Under the pieces are notes generated by a model. That model did not search any database and was not told the origin of the DNA. It worked only from the letters and a program-made list of their open reading frames with translations. A stretch of 53,917 bases of DNA from Verrucomicrobia bacterium ADurb.Bin118 (GTDB taxonomy: Bacteria > Verrucomicrobiota > Verrucomicrobiia > Limisphaerales > MWDV01). The DNA is taken from assembly GCA_002070715.1 (NCBI GenBank), contig MWDV01000063.1, positions 1-53,917 on the forward strand, read 5' to 3'. A program made the position numbers and the translations under genes. This document shows positions 46,428 to 50,809 of this stretch, piece by piece (the first letter of the stretch is position 1; each line of letters begins with the position of its first letter).

Positions 46428-46472
46428 CGTTTACCTTTCCGCTTCCCAATTACCAGGGGCATGATCATGGCT

Positions 46473-46506
46473 ATTCCGCACTTCGCATTCCGAATTCCGC
46501 ACTCCC
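46473..46506. repeat. Octamer repeat, right arm of the inverted pair
   Basis: Four diverged copies of the complement of GAGTGCGG (CCGCACTT, CGCATTCC, GAATTCCG, CCGCACTCCC). The outer end reads GGGAGTGCGG on the minus strand and begins within the TAG stop of the DUF58 gene, so the cassette was placed exactly at that stop codon. Confidence 0.8.
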
Positions 46507-47480
46507 TAACTCCACACCTCCGCTTTTCGCAATTGCTTCAACAGCAGGTCCTGCAAATCCATGTTCGAGGGGGCCAGGAAAAAGTTGATGCCGCGCTTGG
46601 TGCAATACTCGCGCAGGCGTTGAACGAAATTCTGCACCGTCTGCTGATACGCCTTCAGGCGGTAGCGGCCGAACGTGACTTCCTGCACGGCGCCGCTCTC
46701 GGAATCCACCAAGCGCAAGTCGCCGTAGTTGGCGGGCGTGAGTTCCTCCGGAGCGAGAATCTGGACGCAGCTCACCTGAAAGCCGCGACCGATCAGCGCG
46801 TTCAATCCCCTCTCATAACCCGCGGGATCAAGAAAATCGCTCAGGACGATGGCAAGGCCGGTTTGCCGCGCTTCCAACGCGCCGCGGCGCAGCGCTTCGT
46901 TCAAGTCCGCGCCACCACCCGCGGTAAGGGCATTAAGGTTTTGGAAAAATTGCATCGAAGACTTTTTTCCACGGACGCTTCGCAATCCGCCACGCGCTGC
47001 CAACTCCCCGGGTGAATGCGGACTGCGAAGCGCCGGGCGCGGAGCATTTGCGTCCGCTGCGCCGCTTGGTGATTCCGCGCTCCGCACTCCGGATTCCGCA
47101 CTGGGAAAGGGGATGACGCTCACGCGATCAAATCCGCACAACGCCACGTAGCCGATGGCGGCGGCGATTTGGCGGGCGAAATCAAATTTGCGCGGTTCGC
47201 CGAAAGTCATGGATTCACTGGCATCGAGGAAAATGCGCACCGGCAATTCGCGTTCCTCCTCGTAGAGCTTGAGGAACAGGCGGTCGAGCCGGCCGAACAG
47301 ATTCCAGTCGAGGTAACGAAAATCATCGCCCGGCACGTAGCTGCGGTGGTCGGCGAACTCAACGGATTGGCCGCGTGCGCGGCTGCGACGTTCGCCCTTG
47401 GCCGAACTCTTGGCGCGTCGGGCGGCGAGCAATTGGAATTGCTCGAGGCGGCGCAGTAGTTCAGGAGTGAGGAGTGCCAT
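46506..47480 (-). CDS. DUF58 protein of the MoxR operon, with repeat insert
   Basis: About 324 residues. DUF58 proteins are the conserved partners of MoxR ATPases. RARGQSVEFADHRSYVPGDDFRYLDWNLFGRLDRLFLKLYEEERE (about 35-79) is the family signature; a vWA-like fold follows (RIFLDASESMTFGE with Asp86-Ser88-Ser90). Normally the sequence VIPF is followed at once by the RRGKK segment; here ~32 residues (about 127-158), encoded by inverted octamer repeats, intervene. The ATG at 47480 gives MALLTPELLRRLEQFQLLA, the standard start, and directly follows the CGCAAAG repeat tract, so there is no ribosome binding site. Two decayed copies of this start region lie upstream in the repeat array. Confidence 0.9.
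   Translation of the reverse strand: MALLTPELLRRLEQFQLLAARRAKSSAKGERRSRARGQSVEFADHRSYVPGDDFRYLDWNLFGRLDRLFLKLYEEERELPVRIFLDASESMTFGEPRKFDFARQIAAAIGYVALCGFDRVSVIPFPSAESGVRSAESPSGAADANAPRPALRSPHSPGELAARGGLRSVRGKKSSMQFFQNLNALTAGGGADLNEALRRGALEARQTGLAIVLSDFLDPAGYERGLNALIGRGFQVSCVQILAPEELTPANYGDLRLVDSESGAVQEVTFGRYRLKAYQQTVQNFVQRLREYCTKRGINFFLAPSNMDLQDLLLKQLRKAEVWS
47007..47102. repeat. Inverted octamer repeats inside the DUF58 gene
   Basis: The left half (GAATGCGGACTGCGAAG and more) and the right half (GATTCCGCGCTCCGCACTCC) are imperfect reverse complements, both built from the GAGTGCGG unit. The 96 bases keep the frame open and encode AESGVRSAES...ALRSPHSPG, low-complexity sequence foreign to DUF58. 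Confidence 0.8.
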
Positions 47481-47666
47481 GAGAATTAACGCAAAGGCGC
47501 GAAGACGCAAAGACGCAAAGCATCAGGACGATCTTTCCAATTAACTGTAGTTTGCAAAACCGGGTTCGCCGGAGGCGAACAACTTGAATAGCCGTGGGTG
47601 AAACCCACGGAACTGCGACCAACAAACAATCCCGCCCCGAAGGGGCGGAACAAATCGTCCGCCCAA

Positions 47667-48113
47667 TCAAACCAGATATTTTTCATCGAATGTTATCCCG
47701 TGTTTAACCAGAAATTCACGCAACTCATCCTGGAACGAAACCATCTTGTGATGTTCCTCCTGCCTTTTGATGTATTCAATCACCGCGTCCTTGTCGCTGT
47801 GCGAAACCGTGAATCCACCGTAACCCTCCTGCCAATGATCGAAGCCAGGGAAAACGTGGTTTTGTTTAATCCAACTGCTGGTGCTGATTTTGATGTCTTT
47901 TACCAAAGTGGCCAGCGCAATGGTGGGATGGATTTCGGTCAAAATGTGAAGGTGATCTTCCACGCCGCTGATTCGGTACAGATGGCAATCTTTGTTTTTC
48001 AGAATGCCCCAGATGTAGCGGAACAGGTCGTCGCGTCTGTTGGCGAGCAGTGCACGTTCACGATTCTTCGTCGAGAAGACGACGTGGTAGTAAATTTGGG
48101 TGAACGTGGACAT
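47667..48113 (-). CDS. IS200/REP-associated tyrosine transposase (RAYT/Y1)
   Basis: A protein of 148 residues of the Y1 HUH transposase family. VEDHLHILTEIHP holds the HxH metal site (His54, His56), and VIEYIKRQEEHHK the nucleophilic Tyr114; MSTFTQIYYHVVFSTKNRERALL is the usual start. All key residues are intact, so the enzyme may be active. It lies inside a dense set of short GC-rich hairpins, as REP-associated transposases do, and could mobilise them by single-strand transfer. A canonical IS200 would have subterminal hairpins only; the number of hairpins here argues for the RAYT type. Lower GC than its neighbours fits an acquired gene. Confidence 0.92.
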   Translation of the reverse strand: MSTFTQIYYHVVFSTKNRERALLANRRDDLFRYIWGILKNKDCHLYRISGVEDHLHILTEIHPTIALATLVKDIKISTSSWIKQNHVFPGFDHWQEGYGGFTVSHSDKDAVIEYIKRQEEHHKMVSFQDELREFLVKHGITFDEKYLV

Positions 48114-48454
48114 GGAGGTTCAGGAAGTTCCCGAGGTGCAGCGATTGTGGCGTGCTGTGAAAATGTTAACGCATTGAATGCAGTCTGCGTCAGTTCGCCA
48201 AAGGCGAACCACATGAATAGCCGTGGGTGTAACCCACGGAACATGTCCACCACCATCAAAGGCCCTGAAAGGGCCGGACCACGCGGCGATTAATTTATGG
48301 CGTCTGTGAATTCGGCGTGGGCAAGGGGATGAATGAGGATACGACCCCTTCGGGGTCGAATCCTTTTTGTGCTGGGTTTCCGTGGGTTGGCACCCACGGC
48401 TATTCATGTTCATCCGCTGCGCGGATGTAGGTGGGCAAACGCACTGCCCCGCAG

Positions 48455-48506
48455 GCAACTGAGATTGTTCCGGTTGACGAAGAGGTTCAGTGGTAAGCAA
48501 AGGCAT
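48455..48506 (-). pseudogene. Decayed copy of the DUF58 gene start (ghost 1)
   Basis: Reading leftwards from an ATG at 48506 gives MPLLTTEPLRQPEQSQLPA, clearly related to MALLTPELLRRLEQFQLLA of the DUF58 gene at 47480. The bases upstream (a CGCAAAG run, CTTTGCGTTAATTC) are also shared with the functional copy. After about 19 codons the frame enters hairpin repeat sequence. Confidence 0.7.
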
Positions 48507-48511
48507 GGGAA

Positions 48512-49012
48512 TTAACGCAAAGGCGCGAAGGCGCAAAGACGCAAAGCCTCAGGGCAATCTTTCCAATCAGTTGTGCTTTGTAAAACCAGGTTCGCCGACG
48601 GCGCATTACACGAATAACCGTGAGTGCGAGCTAGGGGATATGTGTGGTGTGTTGTGAAAATGTTAACGCGGTGAATGTGGTTTTTGTCAGTTCGCCGGAG
48701 GCGAGCTGCATGAATAGCCGTAGGTGTAACCCACGGAACATGTCCACCGACATCATCGGCCCTGAAAGGGCCGCACAATGAGGCGAGTATTTTTCGGCGC
48801 ATCGGTTGGATGCGGAACGCGTGTTGGGACGGTTGTTGATGCGACCCTTTCAGGGTCGGGATTGCTTTGCGCTGGGTTTCCGTGGGTTGGTACCCACGAC
48901 TATTTACATTTATCCGCTTCGCGGATGCGGCTGGGCACACGCGCCACGCCATGGGCAATTGGAATTGCTCCATCTGATGAAACAGTTCGGGAGTGCGAAG
49001 GGACAATAACAT
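48512..49012. repeat. REP array unit B, without transposase gene
   Basis: This ~500-base unit repeats unit A in the same order: a CGCAAAG run (48511-48546), AGGTTCGCC/GGCG, TGTGAAAATGTTAACGC, TTCGCC/GGCGA (48690-48706), CCGTAGGT/ACCCACGG (48718-48737), GGCCCT/AGGGCC (48758-48772), CGACCCT/AGGGTCG (48842-48858), CCGTGGGT/ACCCACG (48880-48899) and ATCCGC/GCGGAT (48912-48926). The RAYT gene is missing, as if deleted between the first CCGTG-type hairpin and the TGTGAAAATG block. It ends with the second decayed DUF58 start. Confidence 0.8.
48953..49012 (-). pseudogene. Decayed copy of the DUF58 gene start (ghost 2)
   Basis: An ATG at 49012, 2 nt after the stop of the upstream gene, gives MLLSLRTPELFHQMEQFQLPM, which aligns with the DUF58 start; 16 bases (GAGCAATTCCAATTGC) are identical. 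Its place right after the preceding gene suggests that this was the original DUF58 start before the array was inserted. Confidence 0.65.
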
Positions 49013-49014
49013 CG

Positions 49015-49815
49015 TTATTTGTTTGTAGAGATTCCACTTACAACATCAGCCGGGGTGTTGGTTCTCGTTTGAATCCAATGAGGAGGAAAATGCTCTTTCA
49101 CCTGTGCTTCAAACCAGTCCGCCGATGGTTCGTCTTGAAACTTGAAACCCTGAATTTTGAATTCGCGTGTAGGGTGCGTCCATTTGCTTGAGTAGTTCCC
49201 GCCGCTTTCTTTTAACAATATCTTCCGAGGTATCCGAATATCACCATCTTGCATCCAGTCTTCGCAATCTTCTTCCCACTTCGTAGAAGCGGATTCTTCC
49301 TTCCAAAGGTACACATGTCGCTCGTATTTGTGACCCAGCCCAACGAAGCCGCTACTACTCCAAAGATTTCGACCGGGTACCAGATCATCAAGGTAGCCTT
49401 CTGATCCGCCCCCACCGCCACCGCGGCGCGTACCCCACCATCCGTATTGCCTTTGGCCGTGAAAATCCGCCGTGCGAATCTCTACTGCGTAGCCGCCTGG
49501 CTTCTGACCACCAAGCAAGGTTCGCTTACCCCTTGGTGCGCCCCATGTTTCTTTGCGGAAATAATTTGTGAATCCTCGCATGATGATTTCGAACTCCCTG
49601 CCGTCTACGGTTCCCTTCAGCACAAGAACCGGAGGCGTTTTGAGAGCCTCGCGAGCCTCGATTTCTTGTCGGTCTGCATAATGCCATCGCGCGTCCAGCC
49701 ATTCCCGGTGCCTTTTTATCGCGACCGATACACCCAACACTCCCGCGCTGACGCTGGCGATCAGGACTAAAGCAAATACGAACTTGCGTTCCCTCGGTTT
49801 CACTTCTTTAGGCAT
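49015..49815 (-). CDS. Membrane-anchored protein of unknown function in the MoxR operon
   Basis: A protein of 266 residues. One transmembrane helix (KFVFALVLIASVSAGVLGVSVAI, about 11-33) is followed by a charged helix and a Gly/Trp-rich soluble domain (VLKGTVDGREFEIIMRGFTNYFRKE, QYGWWGTRRGGGGGG), so it is probably periplasmic and tethered. I do not recognise a family. The ATG at 49815 overlaps the MoxR stop by 8 nt (ATGCCTAA), implying translational coupling and a real operon member. Near the C terminus REFKIQGFKFQDE is encoded by a TTTCAAGTTTCAAG-like stretch that resembles a common intergenic repeat, so part of the tail may be repeat-derived. Confidence 0.65.
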   Translation of the reverse strand: MPKEVKPRERKFVFALVLIASVSAGVLGVSVAIKRHREWLDARWHYADRQEIEAREALKTPPVLVLKGTVDGREFEIIMRGFTNYFRKETWGAPRGKRTLLGGQKPGGYAVEIRTADFHGQRQYGWWGTRRGGGGGGSEGYLDDLVPGRNLWSSSGFVGLGHKYERHVYLWKEESASTKWEEDCEDWMQDGDIRIPRKILLKESGGNYSSKWTHPTREFKIQGFKFQDEPSADWFEAQVKEHFPPHWIQTRTNTPADVVSGISTNK

Positions 49816-50809
49816 TCATCGCTTCGGCCGTCACGGGCACGTCGCGGAGGATTAGCGTGATGATGTGGTCGGTGGTGATGCCTTCGGCTTCGGCCTCGAA
49901 ATTCAGGATGAGGCGGTGGCGCAACGCGGGGAGCGCCGCGGCTTGAATATCCTCGAAGCTGACGTTGAAGCGGCCTTGCGCGAGCGCGCGGACTTTGCCG
50001 GCAAGAATGAGCGTTTGTGCGCCGCGCGGGCTGCTGCCAAAGCGCAGGTATTGGTTCGCAATCGGCGCGGCGGTGTCAGTTTTGGGGTGCGTGGCGAGCA
50101 CAAGGCGTACGGCGTAATCTTTCACGTGCGACGCAACGGGGACTTCGCGTATCAGTTGCATCAGGGCCAACAGTTTTTCACGGGGCAGGATTTTATGCAC
50201 CGCGATTTTCGCGCTGGTCGTCGTGCGGTTGATGACTTCGGTCAAACCCGCCGCGTTGGGGTAGCCGACAAGAATTTTGAAAAAGAACCGATCCAACTGG
50301 GCCTCGGGCAAGGGATACGTGCCTTCCTGGTCAATCGGGTTTTGCGTGGCCATGACGAAGAAGGGTTCGGCCAGTTTACGCATCTCCCCGGCGGCGGTCA
50401 CTTGATGTTCTTGCATGGCTTCGAGCAGGGCGCTCTGGGTCTTGGGGGTGGCGCGATTGATTTCATCGGCGAGGATCAGGTGCGCGAAGATCGGGCCGCG
50501 TTGAAATTGAAACTCGCGTCGGCCCGCCGTCGTTTCCATCACCAGATTCGTGCCGAGAATGTCGGCGGGCATGAGGTCGGGCGTAAACTGGATGCGATTG
50601 AAACTGAGGTCGAGCACTTCGCCCAACGTGCGGACCAACAGGGTTTTGCCCAGCCCGGGCACGCCTTCGAGCAAGACGTGGCCGCCGCTGAACAGGGCGA
50701 CGAGGGTGTTCTCCACAATTTCGGTCTGGCCGACGAGGACCTTGCCGATTTCGGCGCGCAGCGCGGCGTAGGTGTCGCGGAAGGATTGGATTTGTGATTC
50801 AGTGCTCAT
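49808..50809 (-). CDS. MoxR-family AAA+ ATPase
   Basis: A protein of 333 residues. Walker A is GVPGLGKT (49-56), Walker B LILADEINRA (111-120), followed by TPKTQSALLEAMQEHQVT and FFVMATQNPIDQEGTYPLPEAQLDRFFF, the MoxR sensor region, and SPRGAQTL. MoxR ATPases act as chaperones with DUF58 and vWA partners, several of which are in this operon. Its ATG at 50809 is directly preceded by CAACCTCCCA, part of a repeat tract, and lacks a Shine-Dalgarno sequence. In the operon it follows the DUF4175-like gene, from which it is separated by a degenerate four-helix-bundle gene. Confidence 0.95.
   Translation of the reverse strand: MSTESQIQSFRDTYAALRAEIGKVLVGQTEIVENTLVALFSGGHVLLEGVPGLGKTLLVRTLGEVLDLSFNRIQFTPDLMPADILGTNLVMETTAGRREFQFQRGPIFAHLILADEINRATPKTQSALLEAMQEHQVTAAGEMRKLAEPFFVMATQNPIDQEGTYPLPEAQLDRFFFKILVGYPNAAGLTEVINRTTTSAKIAVHKILPREKLLALMQLIREVPVASHVKDYAVRLVLATHPKTDTAAPIANQYLRFGSSPRGAQTLILAGKVRALAQGRFNVSFEDIQAAALPALRHRLILNFEAEAEGITTDHIITLILRDVPVTAEAMNA

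Follow-up and report, generated by a model that had tools for sequence, protein, structure and literature searches.

TnpAY1 subclass 1.2 transposase arrays between repeated ends of operon genes in Verrucomicrobiota and other bacteria

The array in the MoxR–DUF58 operon

The window analysed here is a stretch of 53,917 nt from a fragmented metagenome assembly of 464 contigs. On its minus strand a gene for a MoxR ATPase is followed by a gene for a protein of 266 aa, which has no Pfam or NCBIfam match, then by an array of hairpins holding a transposase gene, and finally by a DUF58 gene (Table 1). The start of the DUF58 gene is present three times—functional at 47480 (S1) and decayed at 48506 (S2) and at 49012 (S3)—with two homologous hairpin units between the copies. 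The functional start is the copy most distant from the upstream 266-aa gene.

Table 1. The array, its neighbouring genes and its open frames, in window coordinates
Feature	Position	Strand	Remarks
MoxR ATPase gene	49808..50809	-	
Upstream operon gene, 266 aa	49015..49815	-	stop 2 nt before ATG at 49012
S3, the old DUF58 start, reduced to a stub of about 22 codons, MLLSLRTPELFHQMEQFQLP	48947..49012	-	
Unit 2, hairpin unit without transposase, about 500 bp	48455..48955	-	deletion derivative of unit 1
S2, second decayed DUF58 start copy, MPLLTTEPLRQPEQSQLP	48440..48506	-	
Unit 1, hairpin unit with transposase, about 1,026 bp	47429..48456	-	
TnpAY1 transposase, 148 aa, Pfam Y1_Tnp, subclass 1.2	47667..48113	-	motifs DHLH, WQ, YIKRQEEHH
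Functional DUF58 gene, 324 aa, start S1 at 47480	46509..47480	-	
Leader immediately 5' of the functional ATG, with dispersed TTTGCGTC repeat	47481..47523	-	present before S2, missing before S3
Hairpin CCGTGGGT/ACCCACGG	48221..48239		more copies at 47592-47610, 48380-48399, 48718-48736, 48881-48898
Hairpin GTTCGCC/GGCGAAC	48193..48209		second copy at 47564-47580
Hairpin CGGCCCT/AGGGCCG	48757..48773		related at 48261-48275, 48842-48858
Hairpin AGGATACGACCCC/GGGGTCGAATCCT	48336..48364		
Open frame, 166 codons, S3 start through unit 2	48512..49012	-	stop ends 5 nt before S2 ATG; shuffle P 0.0015-0.005
Open frame, 128 codons, from S2	48120..48506	-	stop ends 6 nt before TnpA ATG; shuffle P 0.006-0.018
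Open frame, 66 codons	47486..47686	-	overlaps TnpA 3' end by 20 nt; stops 5 nt before functional DUF58 ATG

The three starts and the two units had both been claimed in an earlier, sequence-only reading of this DNA, and scores, shuffles and unit alignments agree with it. The proteins of the start copies (MALLTPELLRRLEQFQLL, MPLLTTEPLRQPEQSQLP and MLLSLRTPELFHQMEQFQLP) were compared. The functional start matches the copy at 49012 with a score of 24, against a maximum of 16 in 5000 shuffles and a maximum of 16 among 5204 tiles elsewhere in the window, which rules out chance similarity. The copy at 48506 is weaker (shuffle P 6e-4, with a score matched elsewhere in the window), and is still accepted because the unit alignments fix its position. 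Similarity between the units is present at base level, at 76–83%, and takes the form of three direct-repeat families, longer than any others in the 54-kb window: 47429–47600 with 48455–48626 (spacing 1026, 77% identity), 48146–48302 with 48643–48799 (spacing 497, 83%) and 48366–48488 with 48866–48988 (spacing 500, 76%). In the alignment, unit 2 is unit 1 minus the transposase, deleted between hairpins.

Which of the starts is the original one is indicated by a distant, order-level relative, G002. There the homologue of the 266-aa gene ends in TAA and is followed, after 2 bases, by the sole DUF58 start, without any element. S3 in the window stands at this same distance from the 266-aa gene; it therefore marks the old start position, as the sequence-only reading had proposed, and the element falls within the former gene, about 20–24 codons in. 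The target is thus single in the empty site of this distant relative and duplicated around the insert in the window, and the remaining relatives examined likewise carry one DUF58 start. The element splits the gene, which owes its survival to another copy of the first ~20 codons past the element. A search for a closer relative for the DUF58 locus of the window found none; one unrelated genome (L335, below) shares a methylase–helicase array, and the orthologous DUF58 gene is missing from it.

Smaller repeats and inserts were also seen in this region. A repeat, TTTGCGTCTTTGCGCCTTTGCG, lies just before two of the three DUF58 starts (47481–47523 and 48507–48549) and has short matches at two other places in the genome. 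Another, TTCCGCACTCCGGATTCCGCACT (family D5), occurs downstream of the DUF58 gene (46468–46503) and within its coding region (47067–47102), where it gives rise to an odd SAESGVRSAES stretch in the protein. Two genes for 23S rRNA-intervening-sequence (four-helix-bundle) proteins (Pfam PF05635; 46065–46427 and 50802–51266, minus strand) interrupt the same operon, which seems to gather small inserts.

The transposase and its palindromes

The window transposase matches Pfam Y1_Tnp (PF01797, E 5.5e-24), scores 72.7 bits with the NCBIfam IS200 model, above its cut-off of 55, and matches ISHp608 and related structures at E about 1e-4. Its HUH and Y motifs place it in the IS200/IS605 superfamily of Y1 HUH enzymes, and it has the catalytic residues expected from the family. 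Subclass 1.2, as defined by Quentin et al. 2018, has a Y---Q--HH motif, WQ, a length of about 148 aa and one or two copies per genome (PMC6006769); the window protein shares the motifs, the length and the low copy number, and motifs of the DHLH, WQ and YIKRQEEHH type are present in nearly all relatives surveyed.

The sequence-only reading had called the element REP/RAYT, a label that does not survive the model scores (REP_Tyr_transpos, 24 bits, cut-off 80) or the Y motif, which is YIKRQEEHH here and ends in NP in class 2. The enzyme is, by its sequence, a TnpAY1 of subclass 1.2 and not a RAYT. It resembles REP/RAYT systems (TnpA_REP, class 2) in being a Y1 transposase with flanking palindromes, but the hairpins are not genome-wide: the flanking palindrome has five sites in the 3.78 Mb genome at two mismatches or fewer, three of them in this array.

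The loci studied here also depart from what has been described for subclass 1.2 itself, which was reported to lack IS properties, REPs and IS200-type ends and to occur mostly in Cyanobacteria and Bacteroidetes (PMC6006769). Here the hosts are Verrucomicrobiota, Planctomycetota and others, there are signs of mobility, and palindrome arrays are found at the window and at related loci, against a description without terminal hairpins or REPs. IS200/IS605 transposases are described as producing no larger target duplications (PMC2817692), and the long direct target repeats at these loci depart from that rule; no known TnpA chemistry, therefore, yields such duplications.

Gene starts and gene ends repeated at other loci

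The source genome holds one further transposase of this kind, in a second array. There the first ~45 codons of a helicase gene are present five times, 65–87% identical to the functional copy and separated by a hairpin family different from the window's. The transposase again lies in the unit adjoining the functional gene, and two 276-nt stretches are 100% identical. Two genes thus each have their own start duplicated, and the duplicated segment therefore derives from the target. That the start segment is captured cargo, a part of the element, is extremely improbable. Copies do move within the repeat unit, as cargo would, but every locus carries the end of its own neighbour; the sequence-only reading had named start segments in arrays elsewhere in the genome as evidence that would tell for cargo, and a search of the genome found no copy of the DUF58 start segment beyond this array, while the other array holds the start of its own, different neighbour, the helicase. 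Element-borne cargo was rejected on these grounds.

In an unrelated genome a methylase–helicase array (L335, 4615–6661) resembles that on G000:C46 and has a RhuM gene inserted between a second stub and the helicase gene; the array as a whole may move together with the operon.

Roughly 245 transposase loci were read, 179 from the same order and 67 more via a GTDB scan, covering Limisphaerales, other Verrucomicrobiota, Planctomycetota, Acidobacteria, Deltaproteobacteria, Ignavibacteriales and others. The data are nearly all metagenome assemblies, and the genes at related loci were called from open frames, with Pfam for some. At 23 hand-tabulated loci the start (10) or end (13) of a neighbouring gene is repeated beyond the transposase, over 41–146 nt (median 69); this list is curated and is not a census, with L245 and L408 less certain and L214, L226 and L402 excluded as doubtful. 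The targets span several phyla and include genes for DUF58 proteins (the window, L216), helicases (L074, L335), HsdR (L083, where hsdR carries an in-frame stop, and L221), HsdS (L087, L183, L193, L198, L201, L253), HsdM (L279, L369, L389), IleS (L295), FeoB (L294), UbiD (L287) and a kinase (L410). TnpA has the same orientation as the duplicated gene in 22 of the 23. Copies are near-identical at L183 (99% over 98 nt) and L350 (95%), which favours recent local duplication; other copies have decayed.

Most TnpA loci have no detectable duplication. An automatic test for non-palindromic direct repeats found them at 20 of 116 transposase loci and at 8 of 294 control positions (P 1e-6), a rate that is uncertain in its exact value because some of the 20 are the element's own repeats. 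In this element family duplication recurs, both of gene starts and of gene ends, and the RAYT and IS200 literature searched holds no account of this pattern.

Three loci with other inserts were recorded. At L216 (4284–4815) a RelE/ParE-like toxin–antitoxin cassette lies on the opposite strand between the second stub of another DUF58 gene, its identity judged by eye, and the functional start. At L316, in genome G297 (1464–2450), the 3' end of ileS is present twice, around an insert without this transposase. At L025, in genome G032 (913–1347), a different transposase (45% identical) stands between MoxR and DUF58 genes; a duplicated start was looked for there and none was found.

Possible translation through the element and the origin of the duplications

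The window insert is bridged by a chain of open frames with gaps of at most 6 nt; the 166- and 128-codon frames are not independent because they are homologous. At L074 and L083, frames of 677 and 359 codons begin at the stub ATG, cross the hairpins and then the transposase in its +1 frame, and end in a TGA that overlaps the functional gene's ATG (ATGA). In the subfamily to which these two loci belong, the +1 frame through TnpA is stop-free in 18 of 22 genes, where synonymous codon shuffling predicts 3.3. The corresponding figures are 4 of 34 against 1.3 in an intermediate group and 6 of 166 against 4.3, no excess, in a distant one; the excess is given without a P value because related sequences are not independent. 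At many loci of the subfamily the stop codon of the through frame overlaps the start of the gene that follows, and reading frames from upstream extend into the element. The open frames were also considered as a mere accident of GC-rich DNA. Since simple chains of them easily arise by chance, the argument leans only on those frames that are long, on the synonymous-shuffle test and on the overlaps of stop and start codons. We infer from these sequences that selection has acted on the element to allow ribosomes through, so that an operon would be spared polarity effects.

The best explanation, and one we consider probable by a slight degree, is that an element which lets translation pass enters operon junctions by insertion with long target duplication. 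At the window, a small element consisting of a TnpAY1 subclass 1.2 gene within an array of short palindromes would have inserted long ago into DUF58, about 20–24 codons past its start, in a tight operon, and with the insertion the target end would have been duplicated as a long direct repeat. The old start would have been left as a stub by the upstream gene, while the second copy restored an intact gene past the element. The unit of start plus element would later have doubled, one unit then losing its transposase, and translation would continue along the operon. This account presumes that TnpA is responsible both for inserting the element and for duplicating the target, that the second copy is made at the time of insertion, and that ribosomes do translate the open frames. 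The sequence-only reading had likewise supposed that a target duplication rebuilt the 5' end. The rebuilding stands, since it recurs at many loci with a locus-specific segment; its origin at insertion is likely rather than proven, given the codon-bound outer edges of the repeats and the allele-like ileS pairs.

In the cases inspected, the native junction of the two genes is kept beside the stub and the functional gene's end joins the element. The repeats barely extend into the neighbouring gene: their outer boundary falls within 12 nt of a start or stop codon at 19 of the 23 loci (offsets entered by hand), with 3.6 expected under random placement, and is therefore a poor fit to a random staggered break. 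Such boundaries, and a native junction that remains with the stub, would suit the import of an allele, which is a possible but rather unlikely alternative. DNA from a relative, with the element already beside the same gene, would be joined by homologous recombination at one side and illegitimately at the other, or a circle would integrate by a single crossover; the stub would then belong to the resident gene and the functional end to the incomer. One-sided illegitimate recombination is established in bacteria (PMC3240628), and the transposase directly before DUF58 without a stub in G032 is a donor-like arrangement. The differences between copies, 86 synonymous and 88 nonsynonymous, include an excess of synonymous changes that points the same way (49% against 37% expected for a live and a dead copy, P 7e-4); the model is a simple one that takes no account of transition bias, and the test has low power at the window, with about 22 codons. 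Some pairs resemble two natural alleles: the IleS stub and gene have different tails (KQFQLNKETT and LQFKA, the latter common in the genus) and different nearest relatives (9, 9 and 12 differences), the stub being marginally closer to the allele of another species than to the functional gene at its own locus.

Against import, the stub is short (41–146 nt) regardless of age, the pairs at L183 and L350 are nearly identical and the IleS differences are few (9 vs 12). Comparing UbiD with other members of its family gave no decision between these models. The short, bounded lengths and the near-identical pairs speak for duplication at insertion, which is narrowly preferred over allele import.

Arrays do expand, as the identical 276-nt stretches of the helicase array and the two units in the window attest, which is in keeping with hairpin-driven tandem duplication: the element would have landed in an intergenic spacer, and replication slippage would later have copied it together with the adjacent gene end. 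This is improbable. The unit by the upstream gene opens with the stub at native spacing and not with the element, so that an extra deletion would be needed each time, and L183 and L350 come close to single-unit, very recent insertions which already have a stub.

Cassettes other than TnpA (RelE/ParE-like, PIN and RhuM) also lie between stub and gene, with toxin-like or RhuM genes at L216, L287 and L335. Together with the IleS stub behind a non-transposase insert in G297, these mean that the process may not be peculiar to TnpA, and TnpA may not be the cause of the stub–gene arrangement.

Rickettsia palindromic elements are short palindromes that lie in open reading frames inside genes and are not known to have a transposase of their own. 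The present elements share with them the palindromes within an open frame, but carry a transposase, bridge two genes and duplicate a gene end. Insertion with long target duplication has been described for restriction-modification genes of H. pylori (Nobusato et al. 2000, Gene 259:99, as related in PMC1643837 and PMC3031569). As summarised in those sources, it resembles the present case in that the insert lies between long, variable direct target repeats and in its link to restriction-modification, and differs in that here a TnpAY1–palindrome array is inserted, what is duplicated is the start or end of a gene, arrays reach three to five copies, and ileS, feoB and DUF58 are also hit.

The pattern across many genes and bacteria suggests that there is a class of mobile elements able to enter closely packed operons and leave them unbroken. 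A tentative generalisation, which we hold to fall somewhat short of probable, is that subclass 1.2 proteins drive operon-adapted mobile elements, with insertion at junctions, gene-end duplication that keeps both genes intact and a conserved stop-free frame (+1 across their own transposase in one subfamily), through which ribosomes would pass to re-initiate at the next gene. If so, a role would be found for a transposase-like group for which none is known, and long target duplications would be linked with IS200-type elements, which reportedly do not make them. There would also be a route for mobile DNA into operons, those of restriction-modification above all, which spares the genes and the flow of translation. 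The pattern would explain annotated fragments of gene starts and gene ends that are otherwise taken for pseudogenes or assembly errors.

At L181 the gene after the through-reading frame opens with about 20 codons of an hsdS start and then runs into another hairpin element; a further stub is likely there.
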